From assembly GCF_003583935.1 (NCBI RefSeq), contig NZ_QYRN01000003.1, positions 186,001-250,000 of the forward strand: a stretch of DNA of 64,000 nt, read 5' to 3'. Of the stretch, positions 52,804 to 64,000 are shown in pieces; position 1 is the stretch's first letter; each line of letters opens with the position of its first letter. The notes beneath the pieces were generated by a model. It did no database searches. It was not told the DNA's origin and was given only the letters and a program-made list of their open reading frames with translations. A program made the translations under genes and the position numbers. This DNA comes from Aureimonas flava. Lineage in GTDB: Bacteria > Pseudomonadota > Alphaproteobacteria > Rhizobiales > Rhizobiaceae.

Positions 52804-54591
52804 TCATCGCGCGATGCGCAGCGCCGAGATCTCGTCGGTGATGGAGGAGAAGGCGCTCAGAAGGTCGTTGGAGTTCTTGGCGTCGTAGTAGAGCTTGGCG
52901 CCCTTGCCGTCGATGCCGTTGGAGGCGCAGGCCCGCAGCCGCTCCTTGATCGGACTTCCGTCCTTCAGGTCGAAGGCGATCGAGAAGATCACGATCCCGT
53001 CGCCGCCATCGTCGTTGGTGCCGTCCTTCTTGATGTTCTCGCAGACGCGGCTCATCGTCTCGTTCATCGCGGCGGTGATGTTGGAGATGGCGGCCTTGGG
53101 CTTGGTGGAGAGGGTCGCGTCGAACATCCGGCCGATCCGCACGGTCGGCGTGCTCTTGGTGGTGTCGAGGATCTGGCCGTAGCCGTAGGTGCCGAACATC
53201 GAGCGGTTGGCGTTGGTCAGCTCGATCTGCTCGCCGGACGTGTAGGCCGCGTTGTAGGTGTTCTCGCCGTCCGTCATCAGGACGACGACCTTGAGGTTCT
53301 CCTTGGTGTTGCGGGGACGGCCCTCGGGGAAAGGCTGTCCGTCGGTGAGCGTGCGCCAGCCCCAGGCCAAGCCTTCCGCGATGTTGGTGCCGCCCAGGGG
53401 CTGCATGTCCCGCACGGCGCTCTGGACCACCGATTCCGTCGCAGTCAGCGGCGTGATCTTCGTCGTGGTGCAACCGTTGTTCGGACCTTCCTTTTTGCGA
53501 TCTGCGTTGGGCGATTCCAAATACTTCGTCACGTCCCGCTGCTTCGCCAGGGCCGCGGCGTCGCCGTCCGGAGCATTGCCCGTGTCGGGAAGATAGTCGT
53601 TCTTCACCGACGAAAGCGAACCGCTCCAGTTGTATTCGGATGGGGCCAACAGCGGCACAAAAAGCGTCGACGGGTCCTTCTCGATCGGGGCGTTGTCGGT
53701 GATCGCATATCCGTTCGGCCGCGACATGACGCAGCCCGCCCAAGCCCAGTCGCTGTAGCGCTTGCCCAGCTTTTCGAAGATCGTGAACTTGGTCAGCGGC
53801 CTGAGGAGAAGATCCTTCCAGGAACCGTCGGACATCTTCTGAGCCTGCCGGAAGCCGTAAACCTTCCAGGTCGTCCAGTCCAAGTCGTCGTGATGCGAGG
53901 GGTTGAGGCCCTTGGTGTCCATCCAGGTGGCGGAGGCATAGTCCTTGCCGACGTTGACCGACGCCGCGAACGGCACCACGGAGATGCGGACCGGATCCTT
54001 GGCGTTGGCCGCCGGCTGGGAGACGAGCATCTTGGAGACCAGCGACTTGGTGGCCTCGCGCAGCGTCACGATCTTGGCCGCGCCACCGCCGGCCGGCGCG
54101 TTCTTCATCGAGCCGGAATTGTCGAGCACCAGCGCCAGTTCGATCGAGCGGTTGGCGACGATCACCTCGCTGAACGCTTCGAGATGCCAGCGCTCCAGGT
54201 CGACCTTGCCGCCCGTGACGGCCTTCACCGCTCCGCCGAAATAGGTCGGAGCGTCGCGCACCGCCGAAACGCGCAGCACGTTGTTGCCGTCCACGCGCGT
54301 GACGCCGTCGTAGGAAAAGCGCGTGTCGGCACTCGCCTCGCTTCCCTCGTTGGCGAAGAAGAGGGACTGCGCCCATCGCTCGAGCTCAGCCGGGTCCTGC
54401 GTGCGGCCGTACTGCTTGGCCGCGCCCAGCGCCGCCGCGTCGAGCGAGCGCTGCATGCTCCATTTCGACGCCTCGATCGCGGACGTGTCCACCGCCATGC
54501 CCATGGTCACGACGATCACGGGCATCACCAGCGCGAAGACGAGGGCGACGTTGCCGCGAACGTCGCGCCGAAAGGATCGATAGCGGCTCAT
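52804..54591 (-). CDS. tadG: TadG-like pilus assembly protein with VWA domain
   Basis: The 595-residue protein has an N-terminal TadE/TadG-type membrane anchor ('DVRGNVALVFALVMPVIVVT') and a large von Willebrand A domain beginning 'IELALVLDNSGSM', an intact metal-ion-dependent adhesion site (DxSxS), with 'GTNIAEGLAWGW' and 'VVVLMTDGENTYN' as later parts of the same site. TadG proteins are tied to the Flp/Tad pilus and surface adhesion. ATG 54591 has GAGGA seven bases upstream. It is the last of three genes tadE-tadE-tadG; the pilin and secretion ATPase genes are not in the window. Confidence 0.88.
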   Translation of the reverse strand: MSRYRSFRRDVRGNVALVFALVMPVIVVTMGMAVDTSAIEASKWSMQRSLDAAALGAAKQYGRTQDPAELERWAQSLFFANEGSEASADTRFSYDGVTRVDGNNVLRVSAVRDAPTYFGGAVKAVTGGKVDLERWHLEAFSEVIVANRSIELALVLDNSGSMKNAPAGGGAAKIVTLREATKSLVSKMLVSQPAANAKDPVRISVVPFAASVNVGKDYASATWMDTKGLNPSHHDDLDWTTWKVYGFRQAQKMSDGSWKDLLLRPLTKFTIFEKLGKRYSDWAWAGCVMSRPNGYAITDNAPIEKDPSTLFVPLLAPSEYNWSGSLSSVKNDYLPDTGNAPDGDAAALAKQRDVTKYLESPNADRKKEGPNNGCTTTKITPLTATESVVQSAVRDMQPLGGTNIAEGLAWGWRTLTDGQPFPEGRPRNTKENLKVVVLMTDGENTYNAAYTSGEQIELTNANRSMFGTYGYGQILDTTKSTPTVRIGRMFDATLSTKPKAAISNITAAMNETMSRVCENIKKDGTNDDGGDGIVIFSIAFDLKDGSPIKERLRACASNGIDGKGAKLYYDAKNSNDLLSAFSSITDEISALRIAR

Positions 54592-54628
54592 GGCAGGTCC
54601 TCGCGCCGGGTCGGTGGAAGCGGGCGGA

Positions 54629-55174
54629 TCATTTCCAGGCGATCTCCGTGCCCTTGCGGGGCCGGAACGTGAAGCGGCGCTCGAACTCCATCGTGCCGAA
54701 TATGCCGACGAAGTCGAAGGCCGGCGTATAGGCGTAGCGCACCGTCGCGAGCACGAAGTAGGCGTCGGCAAGGCCCGCCAGCTCGTCCGGAAGCCGGTAG
54801 GGCGTGCCCTTGGCCGCCGCCTCCGCGGTTCCCCTTCGCGACCAGTCGACGGTGGCGACCCCCTTGGCGTCGGTGCGCACGGTGGTGACCGTGATCTCGG
54901 GCGGATCGCCGTCCACCGAACCGATGATGGCGTCGGAGATGAGAAGGACGTTGCGCATGCGCGTCGCGTCCATTTCGGAAGAGCGCGCCACGATGCCGCC
55001 CACCGTCTCAGCCGCGTTCGTCACCTTGCGCTTGGTGATGATGGCCTGCGAGGCCTCGAACGTGCCGAGATAGAACAGCAGCATCACCGGGAGGATGACG
55101 GCGAATTCCACGGCCGCGGCACCACGGCGATCGCGCAGGAACGGGAGAAATCGGGCGCGGCGCGGCTGCTCCAT
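54629..55174 (-). CDS. TadE-family pseudopilin
   Basis: A 181-residue protein with the TadE-like N-terminus: basic lead, glycine, then 'AAVEFAVILPVMLLFYLGTF', including the conserved glutamate five residues after the processing glycine. The remainder is a small periplasmic domain. TadE-type pseudopilins are processed by TadV-like peptidases and are needed for Flp pilus assembly. It lies nine bases after another tadE-type gene and 37 bases before tadG. Confidence 0.85.
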   Translation of the reverse strand: MEQPRRARFLPFLRDRRGAAAVEFAVILPVMLLFYLGTFEASQAIITKRKVTNAAETVGGIVARSSEMDATRMRNVLLISDAIIGSVDGDPPEITVTTVRTDAKGVATVDWSRRGTAEAAAKGTPYRLPDELAGLADAYFVLATVRYAYTPAFDFVGIFGTMEFERRFTFRPRKGTEIAWK

Positions 55175-55183
55175 CCCCGGTCC

Positions 55184-55756
55184 TCAGCAGTTGGCCTTCG
55201 TCGACGTCGCGCCGCCGAAGGGTTCGTTCATGAAGGCCGCCATGGAGCCGAGGATCGCGTTGCCGTTCGTGTCCTCCGCGAAGCCGTTGAGGATGGAGGT
55301 CACCCAAGGCCACGGGTAATAGGCGCGGATCACGGTGATCGTGTCCTGCCCTCCCGGGTCGAAGCAGAAGTTCTCGCTGTCCACGGCGCCGTCGCGCAGC
55401 GCGACCGAGGTCGGGATCGGCGAGCCGGCCGGGAAGGTGCGCATGTCGAGCACCAGCCGATCGCAGGACATCATCATGTCGATATCGCCGCAGATCAGGC
55501 GGCGGAAGCCGTCGGCGTCCATGTCTGACTTCTGGACGCTGCCGGTCATCACACCGCGTGCGGCGGAATTGACCGCGTTGTTCAGCATGACCCCCGCGGT
55601 GGTGGCGAGCGCCGTCTCGATCATCGCCATCAGGACGAAGAAGAACGGCAGCGCGACGAGCGAGAACTCCACGGCCGCGACGCCGGACGCGTCGCGGCGG
55701 AACCGCGCGACGGCCTGGGCGACATGATCCAGAGTTGTGCGAGCGGGCCGCTTCAT
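55184..55756 (-). CDS. TadE-family pseudopilin
   Basis: A 190-residue TadE-like protein, first gene of the three-gene cluster. Its N-terminal region has the motif 'DASGVAAVEFSLVALPFFFV' with Gly and Glu as in type IVb pilins. The periplasmic part contains four cysteines (in 'LICGDID', 'MMSCDRL', 'ENFCFDP' and the C-terminal residue), suggesting disulfides. The 119-base gap upstream (55757-55875) should hold the promoter. Confidence 0.85.
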   Translation of the reverse strand: MKRPARTTLDHVAQAVARFRRDASGVAAVEFSLVALPFFFVLMAMIETALATTAGVMLNNAVNSAARGVMTGSVQKSDMDADGFRRLICGDIDMMMSCDRLVLDMRTFPAGSPIPTSVALRDGAVDSENFCFDPGGQDTITVIRAYYPWPWVTSILNGFAEDTNGNAILGSMAAFMNEPFGGATSTKANC

Positions 55757-55875: not shown

Positions 55876-56637
55876 TCAAGCGTCTTCGAATGCGCAATCG
55901 AACAAGGTGTCGTTGCCGAGATCGTAGGTGCGACAGCGGGGACGCAGGGCTTGGCTGAGGCGCGATACGGGCGACAGCGTAAGCCCCGGAGCGCCCGAGC
56001 CGATCACGATCGGGGCCACCGACACGTGCAGGCGGTCCACCAGCCCGGCTTCCAGGAAGTGGCGGATCGTCGCGGCTCCCCCCTCCACCAGCACATGGAC
56101 CAAGCCTCGGTCGGCCAGCGCGTCGAGCAGCGAGCGCGGGCTCAGCCGATCCCCCTCCCCGCGCGCGAGGTGGATAGTCTCGCAGGGCGCCGGCGCGCGG
56201 CAATCGCGCGCGCGCACAAGGATCGTCCTCGCCTCGCCGGACAGGCAGCGCGCATCGGCAGGGACGCGCCCGTTGGGATCGATCAGCACACGCACGGGCG
56301 ACGGGCCGGACACCTCCCGCACGGTGAGTTGCGGATCGTCGGCGACCACGCAGCCGGCGCCCACCACCACGGCGTCGGCCAGGGCGCGCAGGCGATGGAG
56401 ATGGGCGAACCCGTCCGGGCCGGAAATCGGCGCCGCGTCGCCGTCCACCGTCGCCACGCGCCCGTCGAGGCTCTGGCCGACCTGCGCCACCACGAAGGAT
56501 TCCCGGCGCCGGCGGGCCAGCGGCTCGTAGAGCGCCCAGGCCGGCTCGTCGTCGGGCGAGGGTCGCGCGGCGTCCTGCCCGCCGCGCAGCGCCAGAAGCG
56601 CCCGCCACGCCCCGTCGGAAACGCGCATCGCGCTCAT
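55876..56637 (-). CDS. RibD C-terminal-domain reductase
   Basis: This 253-residue protein is only the reductase half of RibD, the domain that reduces the ribosyl side chain of the aminopyrimidine intermediate of riboflavin with NADPH. Family segments are 'AQVGQSLDGRVATVDGD', 'RLRALADAVVVGAGCVVADD', 'LVEGGAATIRHFLEAGLVDR' and 'VAPIVIGSG'. The deaminase domain is missing. ATG 56637 overlaps the upstream sulfatase-fold gene as ATGA. It ends an operon of ribA-type, lipid-head-group and methyltransferase genes, so its substrate is probably a dedicated pterin or pyrimidine rather than riboflavin itself. Confidence 0.85.
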   Translation of the reverse strand: MSAMRVSDGAWRALLALRGGQDAARPSPDDEPAWALYEPLARRRRESFVVAQVGQSLDGRVATVDGDAAPISGPDGFAHLHRLRALADAVVVGAGCVVADDPQLTVREVSGPSPVRVLIDPNGRVPADARCLSGEARTILVRARDCRAPAPCETIHLARGEGDRLSPRSLLDALADRGLVHVLVEGGAATIRHFLEAGLVDRLHVSVAPIVIGSGAPGLTLSPVSRLSQALRPRCRTYDLGNDTLFDCAFEDA

Positions 56638-58265
56638 GTCGCGGGTCCCGCGCCGCTCATCGCGCGCACGAAACGCTCGCGGAAGGCGTCCATCGGCAGG
56701 CTCGTCCCGCCCGGCGCGGGGACCATGCCGGTGGCGAGATCCCAGCCCTCCAACCGCCGAAGCACGGCCGGATCGGCGGACAGGACGTGGAACGGGACGT
56801 CGCGCGAGGCGCCGGGCCCCGTGACCAGCTCGGCCGGCTGATGGTCGCCGACCACCACGACCACCGCGTCGCGCGCGAACCGCGCCACGAACGAGCCGAG
56901 CGCCTCCAGCGCGTAGTCGATCGACAGGCCGTAGTTGAACCGCACGCGCTCGGGATCGCGCCACAGGACGTCGGGCGCCTCGCCGCCGGCGGCCTGCGCG
57001 TCGAACACGGTGCCGTCGCCGACCGCGTCCCACGGCACCATCCGGGGGATCGGCGTCCAGGGTGCGTGGCTGGAGATCAACGCGGTGATCAGCATCGTGG
57101 GTCCGGGCGTGCGCTCCAGCAGCTCGCCGATCTGCCGGAGCGTGAACTGGTCGGGCATGGTGACCCAGTTGAACGACCGGCCGCGATAGCCGAGATCGTG
57201 CGCGGCCAGGATCTCGTCGTAGCCGAACCAGGCGGCCTCGGGCCAGGGCATGGTGATCGCCGGCATCACCGCCGCCGTTCGCCATCCGGCCGCATGGAAT
57301 AGGGCGTTGAGGCTTTGCCGGCGGCTCCGCAGCAGGCTTTCGTAGCGCGTCTGGTTGTCGATCGAGAGGCCCGAAAGGAGCGTGCCGTGCGCCAGCCAGC
57401 TCTGCCCGCCGGCGATCGGCGAGGCCATCCATCCGCTGCGCGAGCCGACACCGACCGCGGCGAGTTCGGCCTCCACCTGCCGCAGCCGCGCCTGCGTGCG
57501 CGGGGCGAAACGGGGCTCCTCCACCACGCTGCGACCGTAGGATTCCACGAACACGACCAAGACGTCGTGCCCCGTCAGGGCCGCGAGAGGCCCGTCCGGG
57601 GGCGCCGCGCGCAGCGGATCGTCGGCGACGTCACGCGCGAAGGTGGCCTGCGCGACGAAGGAACGGCGCGCGTCGGCGACCTTGGCGACGGCGTAGGACG
57701 AAGGACCCGCGGAGATCGGCAGGGGCACCGATGGGGCGAGGACAACGAGGAGCGTCGCGGCGACCGCCGAACCCAGCGCGGCCCCGGCCAGGAAGCCGCG
57801 CGTGCGGCCAGCGAGCCGGCGCAGGCCCGCCAGCCCCCAGGCCAGCACCGCCAATGCCGCCAGGAACGCCGCCAGCGCGCCGCCCACCGCGAGCAGCGCC
57901 CGTCCCTCCCCCACGGTGCCGGACAGGAGATGCCATCCGGCGACCAGCACCGTACGGTCCCCCACCGGGTCGAAGGGGCGGGAGAACGCCAGGAAGGTTC
58001 CCCAGTCCGCCAGCTTCAGGACCGCACCGACGCCCGCCAGCGCGACGACACCGGCGCACAGGAGCGCGAAGGCCCGGCCGCGAAGCAAGGCTAGAAGCCC
58101 CGCCACCCAGAACCATTCCACCGGAAACCGAAGATCGGCCACGGGCCCCGGTCGCGTCGGCAGCGCGAGAGCCGCAAGGAGCAGCGCGAGGCCGACCCCG
58201 ATGCGCAGGCCGATCCGCCGAGGCGCGCGCCCGCCGCCGGTGGCGGACGCCGTCGGCTCCGTCAC
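56634..58265 (-). CDS. Membrane sulfatase-fold protein (LtaS/EptA-like)
   Basis: A 543-residue protein with about five N-terminal membrane helices (to around residue 170) and a periplasmic sulfatase-fold domain starting 'GHDVLVVFVESYGRSV'. A nucleophile-region segment 'SWLAHGTLLSGLSIDNQ', 'ITALISSHAPWTPI' and 'VVVVVGDHQPAELV' carry the expected metal ligands. Relatives (lipoteichoic-acid synthase, phosphoethanolamine transferases) move phosphoalcohol groups from phospholipids. GTG 58265 overlaps the upstream FkbM gene as GTGA. With the CDP-alcohol transferase in the same operon it suggests a modified lipid or glycan product. Confidence 0.82.
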   Translation of the reverse strand: MTEPTASATGGGRAPRRIGLRIGVGLALLLAALALPTRPGPVADLRFPVEWFWVAGLLALLRGRAFALLCAGVVALAGVGAVLKLADWGTFLAFSRPFDPVGDRTVLVAGWHLLSGTVGEGRALLAVGGALAAFLAALAVLAWGLAGLRRLAGRTRGFLAGAALGSAVAATLLVVLAPSVPLPISAGPSSYAVAKVADARRSFVAQATFARDVADDPLRAAPPDGPLAALTGHDVLVVFVESYGRSVVEEPRFAPRTQARLRQVEAELAAVGVGSRSGWMASPIAGGQSWLAHGTLLSGLSIDNQTRYESLLRSRRQSLNALFHAAGWRTAAVMPAITMPWPEAAWFGYDEILAAHDLGYRGRSFNWVTMPDQFTLRQIGELLERTPGPTMLITALISSHAPWTPIPRMVPWDAVGDGTVFDAQAAGGEAPDVLWRDPERVRFNYGLSIDYALEALGSFVARFARDAVVVVVGDHQPAELVTGPGASRDVPFHVLSADPAVLRRLEGWDLATGMVPAPGGTSLPMDAFRERFVRAMSGAGPAT

Positions 58266-59041
58266 GCGCGGGGCCCCACCAGGCGCGCGTACACGTCGCC
58301 CGAACGCCGGTTGCGGGCGGCTTCCAGCGCGAGCCGCGCGCGGAACGCCTCGTCCCCGAGCCAGCGGTCGAGCCGGAAGCGCGCTTCCTCGCCGACCGCG
58401 AGATTGAACTCGTAGCGGCCGAGTTCGCCCAGCCGGTCGAGGCAGCGGAAGGCGAGGTCCAGGGTCGCGGGCGTGTATTCGAAGGCGAGGCAGCGCAGCG
58501 GCCGCGACAGGCCGGCCAGCACCTCCGCCTCGTGTCCCTCCACGTCGATCTTGCAGAAGGCCGGCTCGCCATGCTCGGCGATCAGGATGTCGAGCGTGGA
58601 TACCTCGACGCTGACGCGCTCGCCCCATTCCACGCCGCGAAAGCCCTCGTCGCCGGCGACGCGCCCGCGCCATTCGCCGGACAGGGTGGAGACGGTCGGA
58701 TGGCGCGCGGACACCGCGAGTTCCGCCCGGCCCGGTGCACGGCCAACGGCGCGGCGGTCGAGGCGGATCGTGGCCGGATCGAGCCGGCGGGCGAGATAGT
58801 CGGCGAAGAGCGGCTGCGGCTCGAAGGCGACCACGCGCGCCCCGGCCCGTGCCAGCGCCCGGCTACGACTGCCGACATGGGCGCCGATGTCGAAGGCGAG
58901 GTCGCCTGGCCGCACCAGCGTGCGCAGGAACCGGTCCAGCGCCCAGCGGCGCCACGGCTGGCCGTTGTAGATCGCGATCGAGCGCCAGAGGCCGAGGGTC
59001 GCCGCGTCGAGGCCGACGCGGTCCAGAAGACCTCGCTTCAC
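58262..59041 (-). CDS. FkbM-family methyltransferase
   Basis: A 259-residue SAM-dependent O-methyltransferase of the FkbM family: SAM loop 'AFDIGAHVGSRSRALARAGA', acidic residue in 'VVAFEPQPLFADYLARRL' and the signature 'FCKIDVEGHEAEVLAGLSRP'. Members often methylate sugar hydroxyls of polysaccharides or natural products. GTG 59041 overlaps the CDP-alcohol transferase stop by four bases; the downstream sulfatase-fold gene overlaps in the same way. Codon use and GC content match the neighbours. Confidence 0.87.
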   Translation of the reverse strand: MKRGLLDRVGLDAATLGLWRSIAIYNGQPWRRWALDRFLRTLVRPGDLAFDIGAHVGSRSRALARAGARVVAFEPQPLFADYLARRLDPATIRLDRRAVGRAPGRAELAVSARHPTVSTLSGEWRGRVAGDEGFRGVEWGERVSVEVSTLDILIAEHGEPAFCKIDVEGHEAEVLAGLSRPLRCLAFEYTPATLDLAFRCLDRLGELGRYEFNLAVGEEARFRLDRWLGDEAFRARLALEAARNRRSGDVYARLVGPRA

Positions 59042-59823
59042 GGCCGGACGCTCCGAAGCGCGCGGATGTCCACCGCGAAGGACCAGGCGAGAAGAACGAG
59101 CGCCGCCAGCACCACCCCTTCCGACAGGGGCGGGTCGACCGGCGGAAGCAGGGCGAAGCACAGAAGGGCGATCTGAAGGACGCAGACCGTCTTGCGCCGC
59201 AGCGACGGCGCCAGCGGGCGGGCGAGGCGCGGGTCGAGCGCGCCCCAGACGACAAAGGCATAGCGCATCAGGCCGATCAGGAACACATGGGCGCCGGCCT
59301 TGCCGTCGGCGAAGGCGAGCGCGCACAGGATCAGGATCAGGAAGGCGTCCACCTCCATGTCGAAGCGCGCCCCGAAGCGCGAGGCGAGGCCCGTGCGGCG
59401 CGCGAGCCAGCCATCCAGCCCGTCCAGCGCCAGCGCCAGCAGGGCGGCGCCGGCCAGCATCCACTCGAAACCCGCGTCGTACTCGGCCAGCCGGCCGTAG
59501 TCCCACGCGCAGGCGCCAAGGGCCGCCGCCATCCCTCCGCGCACCGCCGTCACGACGTTGGCGGGCCCGAACCGGACATGCGGATGCTCGCCGAGGGTCC
59601 ACAGCACGAAGCCGACAACCGGCGCGAACAGCGCGAGCGCCAGCGGAAGCACCGGCCAGCCGGCATGGCCCTGAGAGACCAGAAGGCTCGCCGCGACCGT
59701 CAGCCCCAATGCGGTCGCCGCCAGCGTCGCGCAGGCGCCTGGAAGCGCCGGCGCGCCCGCCCGGCCGACCGCCGGGATCGGGCCGGCCTCCGGCATGGCC
59801 GGCAGGATGGGGTCGAAGCGCAT
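59038..59823 (-). CDS. CDP-alcohol phosphatidyltransferase
   Basis: A 261-residue inner-membrane enzyme with six or more hydrophobic helices and the complete CDP-alcohol phosphotransferase motif in 'DGWLARRTGLASRFGARFD' followed by Asp four residues later (D-G-x2-A-R-x8-G-x3-D-x3-D). It transfers a phosphoalcohol from CDP-alcohol to a hydroxyl acceptor. Headgroup specificity cannot be read from the motif. It lies six bases after the GTP cyclohydrolase II gene and overlaps the FkbM gene, so it belongs to the same transcript. Confidence 0.88.
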   Translation of the reverse strand: MRFDPILPAMPEAGPIPAVGRAGAPALPGACATLAATALGLTVAASLLVSQGHAGWPVLPLALALFAPVVGFVLWTLGEHPHVRFGPANVVTAVRGGMAAALGACAWDYGRLAEYDAGFEWMLAGAALLALALDGLDGWLARRTGLASRFGARFDMEVDAFLILILCALAFADGKAGAHVFLIGLMRYAFVVWGALDPRLARPLAPSLRRKTVCVLQIALLCFALLPPVDPPLSEGVVLAALVLLAWSFAVDIRALRSVRP

Positions 59824-59829
59824 CGCGCG

Positions 59830-60951
59830 TCAGCCGAGCTTCGCCGCGATCGCGGGCCAGTCCAGAAGGTGCCCCGCGCGACGTGCCTTCGTGACGAGAT
59901 AGTCGCGGTTCTCCGCCGTGACCGTGCCGAGCACCGCCGTGCGGGCGCTTACCTCGATGCCCGCCGCCTGGAGCGCGGCGATCTTGGCGGGGTTGTTGGT
60001 GAGGAGTTCCACCGAGCCGATCCCGAGCCCGCGCAGCATGGCCACCGCCGCGCCGTAGCGCCGCCCGTCGGGCTCGAAACCGATTTGCGCGTCGGCCTCG
60101 ATCGTGTCGAAGCCCTCGTGCTGCAGGCCGTAGGCGCGCATCTTGGCGGCCAGCCCGGTGCCGCGCCCTTCCTGGTCGAGATAGAGGAGCACGCCGCCGC
60201 CCCGCCGCGCGATGAGCTGCAGGCCCTCGCGGAGCTGGTCGCCGCAGTCGCATTTCAGCGAGCCGAAGAGGTCTCCGGTGATGCAGGACGAATGGATGCG
60301 CACCGGCACGGGCCCCGACGCGTCGGCCTCGCCCACCACGATCGCGAGCTGGTCGCGCTGAGCGAGGCCCCCGCGAAACACCACGAAGCGGCAGTCGGCG
60401 ACGTCCCGCAGCGGAACGGGGGTGCGGGCGACCTCGCGGAAACGGGTTTCCTGCGCGGTGGCCGCGCGCAGCTCCGCCTCGGCCACCGCGAGGCAACGGA
60501 CGAGCGTGGCGTCGCCCGGACGCGCCGGCCGAACGAGAAAGGCCGGCAGGAGCTGCGCGAGGCGCGCGAGCTCCACCAGGCAGCCGAGATCGGGAGCCGG
60601 ACGCCAGGGCGCCTCGCTGCGCGCGCCGGCGGCGAAGGCGAGGCGCGACAGTTCGGCGATGTCCTGCGGGCCCGTGCGCAGGCACACCGGGCCGATGGTC
60701 GACAGGCCGAGCGCCCGCGCGCGGGGCGCGCTGAGGAAGAGATCGGTCTCTGCATCGGCCGCGGCGAAGAAGCGGGCGACGTCGGCGGGTGCGGCAGCGT
60801 CGAGCGCCAGCACGGCGAAGCGGGCGCCATCCGTGGCGAGCACCACGGGCCGCCCGTAGCGCAGTTCGGAAACGGCGCGCTCGGCGTTCAACTTGGCGAT
60901 CTCCGAGACGTCGTCCCCACCGAACAGGATGTCGGAACCGCCTTCGCTCAT
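59830..60951 (-). CDS. ribA: GTP cyclohydrolase II with degenerate RibB-like N-terminal domain
   Basis: The C-terminal half (from about residue 170) is a complete GTP cyclohydrolase II: 'RIHSSCITGDLFGSLKCDCG' with three zinc cysteines, 'YLDQEGRGTGLAAKMRAYGL', and 'LLTNNPAKIAALQAAGIEV'. It opens GTP to the 2,5-diaminopyrimidine. The N-terminal ~170 residues resemble the DHBP-synthase half of RibBA ('AERAVSELRYGRPVVLATDG') but lack the catalytic acidic 'DDEDRENEGD' stretch, so that activity is probably lost. ATG 60951 gives 373 residues. It heads a five-gene operon leading to the RibD-type reductase, and is divergent from the dehydrogenase-PTPS operon. Confidence 0.9.
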   Translation of the reverse strand: MSEGGSDILFGGDDVSEIAKLNAERAVSELRYGRPVVLATDGARFAVLALDAAAPADVARFFAAADAETDLFLSAPRARALGLSTIGPVCLRTGPQDIAELSRLAFAAGARSEAPWRPAPDLGCLVELARLAQLLPAFLVRPARPGDATLVRCLAVAEAELRAATAQETRFREVARTPVPLRDVADCRFVVFRGGLAQRDQLAIVVGEADASGPVPVRIHSSCITGDLFGSLKCDCGDQLREGLQLIARRGGGVLLYLDQEGRGTGLAAKMRAYGLQHEGFDTIEADAQIGFEPDGRRYGAAVAMLRGLGIGSVELLTNNPAKIAALQAAGIEVSARTAVLGTVTAENRDYLVTKARRAGHLLDWPAIAAKLG

Positions 60952-61147
60952 CGCCTTCCACTCCCCACATCGACGCGCACCGGCAGGGCACAGCCGCCAC
61001 GCGGCCCGGCGCTCGATCATGACAGCTAGACGACGGCGGTCCTTAATCCAGATTGACCGCTGAACGAGCGCGTGAGGTGGCCGTGAGGCCGCCGCCGACG
61101 CCGTTTCCAGGTGGGTGGGAGATGGCGCCATAGGAGCCCGAAGAAGC

Positions 61148-62143
61148 ATGGGAGACGCCGGTCCCGACAGACCGGAAGACGGTCGCGCGCTCTGGATCGT
61201 GGGCGCCGGCCGCGCCGAGCTGCGTCGAAGCGTCGCCCCCGTTCCGACGCCCGAGACTTGCCGCGTGCGAAGCCTGTTCGGAGCGATCAGCCGGGGCACC
61301 GAGCGGCTGGTGTTCCAGGGCGCGGTGCCCGAAAGCGAGGACGAACGCATGCGCGCGCCGCTCCAGGAGGGCGATTTTCCGTTTCCGGTGAAATACGGCT
61401 ACAGCGCCGTCGGCACCGTGGAAGGCGGACCGGACCCCTTGCGCGGGCGCGTCGTGTTCTGCCTCCATCCGCACCAGGACCTCTTCGCCGCGCCACGCGC
61501 CGCGCTGCGCCTCGTGCCGGAGGACGTGCCGCCCGAGCGGGCGGTGCTGGCGCCCTTCATGGAAACCGCGCTCAACGTGGTCTGGGACGCGGCGATCGCG
61601 CCCGGCGACCACGTGGCCGTGATCGGCGCCGGGCTGATCGGCAGTCTCGTCGCCTACCTCGCCGCGCGCGTGCCGGGCACCGAGGTCACGCTGGTGGACA
61701 CCGCCGAGGCGCGCCTCGGCCGCCTGGCGGGCTGGGGCTGTCGGCTCCGGCCGCCGGACGGAGCGCCGGCCGACCAGGACGTCGTGGTGCACGCGTCCGG
61801 CCAGCCGGAAGGGCTCGCCGCCGCGCTGGACTGCGCGGGCGTCGAGGCGCGCGTGGTGGAGGCGAGCTGGTTCGGCACGCGCCCCGTCGCCCTGCCGCTC
61901 GGCGGCGCGTTCCACGCGCGCCGCCTGTCGATCGTCTCCTCGCAGGTCGGCCGCATCCCCGCCGACCGCCGCGCCCGCTGGACCACGGAGCGCCGTCTCG
62001 ACGCGGCGCTCCGGCTTCTGGCCGACCCGGTGCTCGACCGTCTGTTCTCCGGCGAAAGCGCGTTCTCGCGCCTCGACCGCGACTACGCGGCGATCCTCGC
62101 CGACCCCGACACGCTCTGCCACCGCATCCGCTACGCGGACTGA
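61148..62143 (+). CDS. Zinc-type MDR dehydrogenase, BchC-like
   Basis: A 331-residue medium-chain dehydrogenase resembling the BchC (bacteriochlorophyllide dehydrogenase) group: 'GAISRGTERLVFQGAVPES', 'FPVKYGYSAVGTVEGG' and the Rossmann loop 'VAVIGAGLIGSLVAYLAARV'. The usual catalytic-zinc 'GHE' motif is absent, as in BchC-like proteins. I use ATG 61148; a GTG at 61115 is possible. No photosynthesis genes are near. It opens an operon (PTPS homologue, glycosyltransferase, methyltransferase) divergent from ribA across 196 bases, where both promoters must lie. Confidence 0.82.
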   Translation: MGDAGPDRPEDGRALWIVGAGRAELRRSVAPVPTPETCRVRSLFGAISRGTERLVFQGAVPESEDERMRAPLQEGDFPFPVKYGYSAVGTVEGGPDPLRGRVVFCLHPHQDLFAAPRAALRLVPEDVPPERAVLAPFMETALNVVWDAAIAPGDHVAVIGAGLIGSLVAYLAARVPGTEVTLVDTAEARLGRLAGWGCRLRPPDGAPADQDVVVHASGQPEGLAAALDCAGVEARVVEASWFGTRPVALPLGGAFHARRLSIVSSQVGRIPADRRARWTTERRLDAALRLLADPVLDRLFSGESAFSRLDRDYAAILADPDTLCHRIRYAD

Positions 62144-62175
62144 CCCCTTCCCCTTCTCCAGCGCGAGGCCCGCCG

Positions 62176-62574
62176 ATGTTCGCCGTCGAAGTCCGTGACC
62201 GCATCATGATCGCCCACAGCCTTCCCCGTCCCGTGTTCGGCCCGGCCCAGGGCATGCACGGGGCGACCCTCGAGGTGGACGCGGCCTTCTTCACGCAGGA
62301 CCTGGACGAGGACGGCCTCGGCGTCGACATCGGCCTCGCCGCCGCGGTGCTCGGCGAGGTTCTGGCGCCGCTGAACTACCAGAACCTCGACGCGCTGGAG
62401 GTCTTCCGCGGCCGCGTCACCACGACCGAGGTGCTGGCGCGCCACGTGTTCGACGCCCTGGCCGGGCGGATCGCGGCGGGTGCCTTCGGGCCCGGCGGCG
62501 CGCGCATCCGGCGCCTGCGCGTGACCCTGCACGAGAGCCAGGCGGCGCGCGCCTGGTACGAGGCGGAGCTTTGA
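62176..62574 (+). CDS. Divergent 6-pyruvoyl-tetrahydropterin synthase/QueD-family protein
   Basis: At 132 residues this fits the PTPS/QueD T-fold family ('VRDRIMIAHSLPRPVFGP', 'GMHGATLEVDAAF', 'TLHESQAARAWYE'). The canonical proteins have a catalytic Cys four residues before a His-Gly-His zinc motif; here the Cys is Ala24 and the second His is Ala30, leaving only His14 and His28 as clear ligands. The usual 'LDHxxLN' also reads 'LNYQNLD'. It may have a changed reaction or a binding role. It ends in TTGA overlapping the glycosyltransferase start. Confidence 0.82.
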   Translation: MFAVEVRDRIMIAHSLPRPVFGPAQGMHGATLEVDAAFFTQDLDEDGLGVDIGLAAAVLGEVLAPLNYQNLDALEVFRGRVTTTEVLARHVFDALAGRIAAGAFGPGGARIRRLRVTLHESQAARAWYEAEL

Positions 62575-63629
62575 ACGCGGCGGTCGCGCGCGATCTCGTT
62601 TTCGCCATTCCGGGCGACCTCGACGCGCCGAGCGGCGGCTACGGCTACGACCGGCGCATGATCGCCGAACTCGCCGATCTGGGTTGGCGCTTGCGCGTGC
62701 TCGCGCTGCCCGCCGCCTTTCCGGCGCCGGGGCCGGCCGACCATGCGGCCACGGCCGAAGCCTTCGCCGGGCTCGACGACGGCGCGCTGGTGCTGGTCGA
62801 CGGGCTCGCCTTCGGCGCCCTGCCCGCCCTGGCGCGGCGCGAGGCCGCGCGGCTGCGGCTGGTCGCGCTGGTGCACCACCCGCTGGCTTTGGAAGACGGG
62901 CTGGCGCCGCCGGTGGCCGAGGCGCTGCGCCTCAGCGAACGCGAGGCGCTGGCGCACGCGCGGGCGATGGTCGCCACCAGCGCCACCACCGCCCGGCTCC
63001 TGAAGATCGGCTTCGGGGTCGCCGCGACGGTCGCCGTCGCCCCGCCCGGCACCGAGCGCCCCGATCGCCTCCCAACCACCCGCGACGCGCCGGTGCCGAC
63101 GATCCTGTCGGTCGGCGCGCTGATCCCGCGCAAGGACCACGCCTTGCTGGTGGATGCGCTGGCGCGCCTCGCCGATCGCCCCTGGCGATGCCGCATCGTC
63201 GGCAGCCCGACGGCCGATCCGGCCACCGCCGAAATGGTGCGGGCGCGCGTCGCGGCCGCGGGTCTGGAGCGGCGCATCGTGCTGGCCGGTGCCGTTGCCG
63301 ACGTCGAGGCGGAGTACCGCGCGGCCGATATCTTCGCCCTGCCGTCCCGCTTCGAGGGCTACGGGATGGCCTTCGCGGAGGCGATGGCGCACGGGCTGCC
63401 CGTGGTCGGCTGCGCGGGCGGCGCGGTCGCGGAGGTGGTGCCGCCGGAGGCCGGGCGGCTGGTGGAGCCCGGCGACGCCGCCGGCTTCGCCGAAGCCCTG
63501 CGCGCGCTCCTTGACGAACCGGCGCTTCGCCGAGACCTCGCGCTCGGCGCGTGGCAAGCGGCCCAAGGCCTGCCTACCTGGGCCGATTCCGCCCGGATCC
63601 TTTCCGACGCCTTGGAGGCGGTGCATTGA
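62571..63629 (+). CDS. GT4-family glycosyltransferase
   Basis: A 352-residue GT-B glycosyltransferase with 'GGYGYDRRMIAELADLGWRL' at the N-terminus (acceptor domain), 'TILSVGALIPRKDHALLVDA' and the donor-binding 'FALPSRFEGYGMAFAEAMAH' (E-x7-E motif). It should move a sugar from a nucleotide donor. The start is TTG 62571, overlapping the PTPS-homologue stop as TTGA; no ATG exists near the conserved N-terminus. It overlaps the following methyltransferase the same way. Confidence 0.9.
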   Translation: MNAAVARDLVFAIPGDLDAPSGGYGYDRRMIAELADLGWRLRVLALPAAFPAPGPADHAATAEAFAGLDDGALVLVDGLAFGALPALARREAARLRLVALVHHPLALEDGLAPPVAEALRLSEREALAHARAMVATSATTARLLKIGFGVAATVAVAPPGTERPDRLPTTRDAPVPTILSVGALIPRKDHALLVDALARLADRPWRCRIVGSPTADPATAEMVRARVAAAGLERRIVLAGAVADVEAEYRAADIFALPSRFEGYGMAFAEAMAHGLPVVGCAGGAVAEVVPPEAGRLVEPGDAAGFAEALRALLDEPALRRDLALGAWQAAQGLPTWADSARILSDALEAVH

Positions 63630-64000
63630 GCGGCTTCGACACGACCTGGCTCGACCTGCGCGAGCCCGCAGACCACGCCGCGCGGGACCATACCCTCCTG
63701 AATGCCGCGCGCGCCCACCTGCGGGCGGGCGGAGCGTCCGCGCTCGCGGTGGACCTCGGCTCGGGCACGGGCTCGACCCTGCGCGCCTTCGGCCCCGACG
63801 GCGGGACGCGCTGGCGGCTGGTGGACCACGACCCGCGCCTTCTGGAGGCCGCCTCGGCACGCCTTGCCGGGTTCGGCGTCGTGGAACGGGTGGAGGCCGA
63901 TCTCGGCGCCCTGCCGCCCGCGATCCTCGACGGCGCGCGTCTGGTCACGGCGTCCGCGCTGTTCGACCTCGTGTCGCGTCCCGTGGTGGAGCGTCTCGCG
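63626..64000 (+). CDS. Class I SAM-dependent methyltransferase (3' end beyond window)
   Basis: The visible 125 residues start at TTG 63626, overlapping the glycosyltransferase stop as TTGA. The SAM loop 'ALAVDLGSGTGSTLRAFGPD' and the acidic 'WRLVDHDPRLLEAASARLAG' identify a Rossmann methyltransferase, continuing to 'LVTASALFDLVSRPVVERLA' at the edge. Its substrate is unknown, but by operon membership it should act in the same pathway as the PTPS homologue, dehydrogenase and glycosyltransferase. Confidence 0.85.
   Translation, partial: MSGFDTTWLDLREPADHAARDHTLLNAARAHLRAGGASALAVDLGSGTGSTLRAFGPDGGTRWRLVDHDPRLLEAASARLAGFGVVERVEADLGALPPAILDGARLVTASALFDLVSRPVVERLA

Follow-up and report, generated by a model that had tools for sequence, protein, structure and literature searches.

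Gene content and conservation of the locus

The right-hand end (positions 55876 to 64000) of a 64,000-nucleotide stretch of the Aureimonas flava genome, called the window below, carries a divergent gene cluster in which relatives of riboflavin and pterin biosynthesis enzymes stand together with glycosyltransferase, methyltransferase and phosphoalcohol transferase families. The first-pass annotation of this DNA had named nine genes there, and Pfam and TIGRFAM profile matches find all nine with the families claimed. The minus strand encodes a RibD-type reductase domain (ribD, 55876-56637; PF01872, 1.5e-38, deaminase domain absent), an LtaS/EptA-type membrane phosphoalcohol-transferase-like protein of sulfatase fold (sulf, 56634-58265; PF00884, 4.7e-11), an FkbM-family methyltransferase (fkbM, 58262-59041; PF05050, 2.8e-15, and TIGR01444, 2.9e-23), a CDP-alcohol phosphatidyltransferase family enzyme (cdpa, 59038-59823; PF01066, 9.8e-12) and guanosine triphosphate (GTP) cyclohydrolase II (ribA, 59830-60951; PF00925, 3.2e-53). 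The plus strand encodes a BchC-like medium-chain dehydrogenase/reductase (MDR) family dehydrogenase (dh, 61148-62143; TIGR01202, 4.4e-11), a PTPS/QueD-fold protein of the SCO6650 subfamily (ptps, 62176-62574; PF01242, 3.8e-19), a GT4 glycosyltransferase (gt4, 62571-63629; PF13692, 9.5e-33) and a class I S-adenosylmethionine-dependent methyltransferase (mt, 63551-64411, running past the window end at 64000; PF13649, 8.9e-6, 26.8 bits against a cut-off of 27). Start codons are assumed, and the end of mt was taken from the genome beyond the window. Just outside lies a flippase-like gene (64408-65412; PF03706, 7.6e-36), tail to tail with mt, which the first-pass gene list did not include.

The remark that genes overlap almost throughout is broadly correct. 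Five junctions overlap, by 4 bases at ribD/sulf, sulf/fkbM, fkbM/cdpa and ptps/gt4 and by 79 bases at gt4/mt, and gaps of 6 and 32 bases separate cdpa from ribA and dh from ptps. The divergent intergenic region between ribA and dh (60952-61147, 196 bases, sequence read) is presumably regulatory; no sigma-70 or terminator matches were found in it.

Conservation was surveyed in 289 genomes of the class, the genome of origin included, with thresholds of E<1e-50 for dh orthologs and E<1e-20 for cdpa. A dh ortholog occurs in 36 of the 289. The 34 wide class loci (one dh-positive genome, G260, is not among them), the window locus, and 80 named loci, these last being the best-scoring 80 of at least 592 confirmed relatives rather than a random sample, make up a set of 115 dh loci. 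Within 9 kb of dh, our definition of near (some loci end at contig ends), ptps is found in 111, gt4 in 102, mt in 100, ribD in 91 and cdpa in 58, followed by ribA (44), fkbM (38), the flippase gene (35), sulf (32), an MdoH/OpgH-type synthase (31, identified with ncbifam models in three examples) and a creatininase-family gene (22). The core of dh, ptps, gt4 and mt is complete in 96 of the 115 loci, and 81 of the 115 have ribD as well.

The named loci belong mostly to Alpha-, Beta- and Gammaproteobacteria. By title, bins of other phyla include two Gemmatimonadota and one each of Acidobacteria, Marinimicrobia and Spirochaetaceae; because metagenome bins may contain foreign contigs, these single bins are weak evidence. 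In a dh phylogeny made by a quick method (123 rows, 48 of them ungrouped), the Alphaproteobacteria need 8 label changes, at least 5 of them forced, a pattern consistent with transfer of the gene set and no proof of it. The long branches of the haloarchaea and of loci L066 and L067 may be misplaced in this tree. L066 and L067, whose dh identity is about 32%, come from streamlined genomes (about 1.4 and 1.6 Mb) and hold a compact arrangement of creatininase, dh, ptps, gt4, mt, ribD and ribA. An inositol-monophosphatase-family gene was seen near the cluster in ten loci (L072, L085, L086, L090, L091, L098, L100, L105, L106 and L107), nine of which have record titles of Rhodobacterales-type organisms.

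The cluster also occurs on plasmids. Among 72,556 plasmid records searched at the protein level, 30 contain dh; 16 dh loci were analysed, and for the haloarchaea 9 of 12 records. A 59-kb Microbacterium plasmid encodes a CDP-alcohol transferase, dh, PTPS, GT4, a methyltransferase, a flippase-like protein and RibD. Streptomyces fungicidicus and S. globisporus have cdpa, dh, ptps, gt4, mt, flippase, creatininase and ribA, with no ribD match in the S. fungicidicus plasmid cluster, and an Arthrobacter plasmid locus has dh, ptps and gt4 only. In Haloarcula marismortui plasmid pNG700 the ptps match (L156:11012-11385) is broken across two reading frames. The first-pass annotation had proposed examining the neighborhood across the Alphaproteobacteria; the set proves to be kept beyond them, in other bacteria and on actinobacterial and haloarchaeal plasmids.

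The surroundings are not kept in this way. Names judged from sequence place adenine-deaminase-like and Tad-like genes on the left and oligopeptide transport genes on the right of the cluster; three minus-strand genes at 52804-55756, to the left, are TadE/TadG-like. Among the 114 other loci, the four left-hand flanking genes examined recur 0, 0, 0 and 0 times and the two right-hand ones 3 and 4 times. Since the set repeats in distant genomes and the flanking genes do not, the association goes beyond chance. We interpret the locus, with a probability of about 60% for the whole model, as encoding a single GTP-derived pathway whose product is glycosylated and methylated and, in many forms of the cluster, probably destined for the cell envelope.

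Enzymes of the probable GTP-derived core

Five alignments, each including the window protein and each cleared of short, fragmentary, frame-shifted and near-duplicate rows, were used to examine active sites: dh (A1, 29 of the 34 wide class loci, 30 rows), ptps (A2, 28 of the 34, 29 rows), RibA (A3, 25 of 32 ribA loci, 26 rows), sulf (A4, 23 of 26 sulf loci, 24 rows) and cdpa (A5, 25 of 46 cdpa loci after thinning plus three plasmid loci, 29 rows). In RibA, residues C223, C234, C236, Y274, D295 and R297 are invariant in 26 of 26. We take the cysteines to be zinc ligands, and Y274, D295 and R297 to correspond to Tyr105, Asp126 and Arg128 of Escherichia coli GTP cyclohydrolase II. The window protein has the residues expected of a GTP cyclohydrolase II, and VIA gives a Z of 24.2 to 2bz0. 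The N-terminal part (residues 15-170) has the fold of RibB (VIA Z 14.2 over 148 residues at 3.5 A to 4p6d; Z 14.0 over 139 residues at 2.6 A to 3lrj). A DRENEGD-like motif, the mark of RibB (3,4-dihydroxy-2-butanone-4-phosphate synthase), is found in none of the 26 rows, and the genome's own RibBA has one. Judged from family and active site, GTP ring opening is a well-supported first step.

In GTP cyclohydrolase II, methionine at the Tyr105 position leads to a formylated product. This methionine occurs in RibA of the two actinobacterial loci that have ribA, each with a creatininase gene adjacent. The idea that it would generally accompany creatininases was dropped, as the expectation held in these two loci only; the 26 aligned RibA proteins all have tyrosine there, with or without a creatininase nearby. 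The sole creatininase-family match in the genome of origin (G000:C20:179477-180211) sits some 6 kb to the left of position 1, far from the cluster.

The window ribD protein consists of PF01872 alone, with no pyrimidine deaminase domain, and its best relatives in the Protein Data Bank (PDB) are the archaeal reductases 2azn (5.5e-27) and 6p8c (1.8e-25). In archaea, according to a passage of PMC3403918, reduction comes before deamination. Reduction by the RibD-type protein is the likely second step.

Haloarchaeal clusters provide the best evidence pointing to ring-opened GTP as the starting material. In four of the nine loci (L155, L160, L163 and L167), dh is adjoined by GTP cyclohydrolase IIa, a family with no known relation to RibA; the one scored, from L160, has 320 bits with PRK02240 (cut-off 306). 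No GTP cyclohydrolase IIa was found beside dh in the remaining five. Replacement of the first enzyme by one of a different type that acts on the same substrate suggests that the route starts from ring-opened GTP.

By its sequence profile, the PTPS homolog is a member of the SCO6650 subfamily. The profile finds SCO6650 (PDB 3d7j) at 1.5e-59, over positions 1-132 of 132, and none of its eight further PDB matches is better than 2.6e-8. PTPS and 6-carboxy-tetrahydropterin synthase share a signature of three zinc histidines, a catalytic cysteine and an Asp-His pair. In the window subfamily the third zinc histidine is replaced by Ala30 in 29 of 29 sequences (HGH to HGA), the other two being retained. 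In the window protein itself, comparison with the genome's own QueD finds the catalytic cysteine and the Asp-His pair replaced as well, so that it lacks the residue set of a 6-pyruvoyl- or 6-carboxy-tetrahydropterin synthase. Two aligned haloarchaeal versions keep HxH and have no such cysteine. SCO6650 reportedly has neither zinc nor PTPS activity. The dehydrogenase scores 42.4 bits against the BchC model TIGR01202, under its curated cut-off of 291.25, and alignment A1 has 38 invariant columns across its 30 sequences.

Could the locus be no more than a duplicated riboflavin or queuosine operon, with unrelated glycosylation genes gathered beside it by chance? Elsewhere the genome encodes a bifunctional RibD (L149, PF00383 plus PF01872), RibBA and QueD, so that the separate riboflavin set for which the first-pass annotation proposed a check is there in part: full RibD and RibBA genes exist, and the cyclohydrolase half of RibBA (L002, G000:C25:135318-135752) lacks the three zinc cysteines next to a strong DHBP (3,4-dihydroxy-2-butanone-4-phosphate) synthase half. 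A genome search returned no third GTP cyclohydrolase II match. From these two facts the window ribA may also serve riboflavin synthesis, perhaps as the genome's only working GTP cyclohydrolase II, and that is what the duplication idea has in its favor. Against it stand the repetition of the set across phyla where flanking genes do not repeat, the loss of PTPS catalytic residues, and the separate QueD and RibD. A plain second riboflavin operon was rejected for the lack of a RibB motif in RibA and of a deaminase domain in RibD, and we regard a chance assembly around any such duplicate as very improbable.

Putative envelope genes and the proposed product

Products of cdpa carry the CDP-alcohol phosphotransferase motif, DxxDGxxAR...GxxxDxxxD: D134, D137, G138, R142, G151, D155 and D159 are invariant in 29 of 29 sequences, Streptomyces and Haloarcula included, and A141 is kept in at least 90%. 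For sulf, E241, S289, D474 and H475 are invariant in 24 sequences. An AlphaFold2 model of the window protein (predicted local distance difference test, pLDDT, 90.3) gives VIA Z 22.3 to LtaS 2w5q (279 residues, 3.8 A), 21.5 to GacH (261 residues, 3.5 A) and about 20 to EptC, EptA and MCR, with 7-17% identity in the structural alignments; no PDB sequence match was obtained at E<=0.001. In this model, membrane helices, an alkaline-phosphatase fold, the nucleophile and the metal ligands fit an LtaS/EptA-type phosphoalcohol transferase.

Both genes follow dh closely. In the 289 class genomes dh is found in 36, cdpa in 21 and sulf in 22, with joint occurrence of dh and cdpa in 20 (hypergeometric 4e-20), of dh and sulf in 20 (4e-19) and of cdpa and sulf in 20 (1e-27), although these P values ignore shared ancestry. 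In two genomes (G015 and G184) dh, cdpa and sulf each have a contig to themselves, so hitch-hiking alone does not explain the co-occurrence. That cdpa and sulf track dh even when unlinked supports an envelope-linked product. Of the 88 wide loci, 28 have the flippase gene near dh, and cdpa is near in all 28.

Two further families were counted in 30 dh-positive class genomes (of the 36, G053, G064, G148, G205, G229 and G260 were left out). Among the 16 cdpa-positive genomes examined, 7 have YceI, a family that binds isoprenoids, no more than 1 kb from cdpa (expected, 0.012), including cases where cdpa is apart from dh (G015, G028 and G184). Cytochrome b561 genes occur 9 kb or less from dh in 8 of the 30 (expected, 0.46) and near dh in 22 of the 115 loci.

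On this basis the following route is proposed. RibA would open GTP to 2,5-diamino-6-ribosylamino-pyrimidinone 5'-phosphate, and the lone RibD-type reductase would convert this to the ribityl form. The PTPS-fold protein, dh, mt and the GT4 enzyme might then produce a methylated, glycosylated pterin or aminopyrimidine, which the CDP-alcohol transferase could join to a membrane lipid through a phosphodiester. The flippase-like protein may turn the lipid-joined product outward, and its transfer or trimming in the periplasm may fall to the LtaS/EptA-like protein. Gene families and co-occurrence are what the middle steps and the lipid bond are inferred from. The first-pass suggestion of such a pterin or aminopyrimidine, perhaps attached to a lipid, is to that extent partly supported.

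Several observations weigh against the proposal. The window ribA may additionally supply riboflavin in its host. RibA matches, RibBA halves included, occur in 188 of the 289 class genomes at E<=0.001, and the window type of RibA (E<=2e-36) occupies 121 places among the matches listed for the 289, also in genomes without dh; a type so widespread, and near dh in just 44 of 115 loci, may be a shared riboflavin gene. A second strong match besides the clustered one is found in G015, G216 and G161. On the other side, ribA lies less than 100 bases from cdpa in G175 and G271, where dh is about 186 and 14 kb off, which ties it to the pathway. Of the nine haloarchaeal loci, one lacks a ptps match and one lacks gt4 besides (L155, L171). 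Two Streptomyces plasmids (L158 and L161) carry a SCO6650-subfamily PTPS gene without the neighboring set. The best profile matches of cdpa are choline phosphotransferases, then PssA. Finally, cdpa is missing at the threshold used from 16 of the 36 dh-positive class genomes, and lipid attachment is therefore not universal.

The PTPS genes of L158 and L161 lie near cupin, MBL-fold and MEKHLA genes, and of these plasmids that of NBC_00019 has a partial dh match about 39 kb from its PTPS gene.

The genomes without cdpa fit a different explanation, in which the product of the core is a soluble cofactor of pterin type or a metabolite that is secreted, and cdpa, the flippase and the LtaS/EptA-like protein form a separate, co-travelling envelope module. 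L066 and L067 fit it too, as they show around dh only ribA, ribD, mt, gt4, ptps and creatininase of the set tested. It is harder to reconcile with the near restriction of cdpa and sulf orthologs to dh-positive genomes, unlinked cases included, or with cdpa in 10 of the 16 plasmid dh loci, Actinomycetes and haloarchaea among them. We judge this explanation unlikely, though the likeliest of the alternatives considered.

A second version of the cluster lacks the lipid module and often has an MdoH/OpgH glucan synthase in its place. In 35 class genomes OpgH is near dh in 8 of the 16 without cdpa versus 0 of the 19 with it (Fisher 5e-4), as if the two modules were alternatives. OpgH as a component of every cluster was rejected, being missing from the window locus and anti-correlated with cdpa. 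These counts, with OpgH near dh in 31 of 115 loci, could mean that periplasmic glucans are what the product is attached to: after synthesis in the cytoplasm it would leave on a lipid or along with the OpgH-like synthase, and the LtaS/EptA-like protein would add it to a glucan. This seems quite improbable: the only OpgH-type match in the genome of origin is on a different contig at 34% identity, OpgH and cdpa coexist in 6 of the 88 wide loci, and the core is present in Actinomycetes and haloarchaea, which to our knowledge do not make osmoregulated periplasmic glucans.

Returning to the GTP-derived, envelope-bound product, its most far-reaching form would be a membrane lipid whose head group, a GTP-derived pterin or aminopyrimidine linked through a phosphodiester, is exposed on the outside of the cytoplasmic membrane, a new lipid class spanning several bacterial phyla and haloarchaea. 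We offer this form tentatively, at somewhat less than even odds. With YceI near cdpa and b561 enriched near the core, such a lipid-bound pterin might perhaps act as a redox-active envelope cofactor.

Known pathways that open or rebuild the GTP ring lead to flavins, folates, biopterin, deazaguanines and the molybdenum cofactor. The first-pass annotation knew of no described pathway with this gene set, and a search of open-licence PubMed Central (PMC) papers likewise found no description of the set or pathway. If the proposal is true, it adds a further GTP-derived end product, kept from proteobacteria to haloarchaea, which may be the first envelope molecule of pterin type. SCO6650, whose structure is solved and function unassigned, would gain a context, and doubt would fall on the 6-carboxytetrahydropterin synthase label that many SCO6650-type PTPS genes bear in plasmid records.

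Comparison with known systems

SCO6650 of Streptomyces coelicolor (3d7j, listed as uncharacterized) belongs to the same PTPS subfamily as the window homolog, and near it lies SCO6655, a GTP cyclohydrolase II paralog. The S. fungicidicus and S. globisporus clusters match the window set, with the difference that their RibA has methionine for Tyr105 and a creatininase adjacent, whereas the window RibA keeps tyrosine.

The early enzymes of the archaeal riboflavin route are ArfA, ArfB and ArfC. Shared with that route are GTP ring opening, a deaminase-free reductase and, in some loci, a creatininase-family protein, with GTP cyclohydrolase IIa itself in four haloarchaeal clusters. The notion that a creatininase supplies an ArfB-like step in every cluster found no support, since one lies near dh in 22 of 115 loci only and none is in the window locus; four from related loci score 19-37 bits against ArfB model NF033501 (cut-off 180), below their scores with other creatininase models. 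Unlike the archaeal route, the present cluster adds the PTPS-fold protein, dh, GT4, a methyltransferase and the CDP-alcohol transferase.

Azapteridine clusters of the toxoflavin type (ToxA-ToxE) use GTP cyclohydrolase II, a RibD-like protein and a methyltransferase for a non-flavin product. The present locus has these three families as well; its PTPS-fold protein, GT4, CDP-alcohol transferase and flippase are not known from toxoflavin clusters and set it apart. On the envelope side, OpgH/MdoH glucan synthesis contributes a synthase to the alternative form of the cluster, which the window locus lacks, and LtaS, GacH and EptA/MCR have the fold and the invariant E/S/D/H residues in common with sulf at 7-17% identity.

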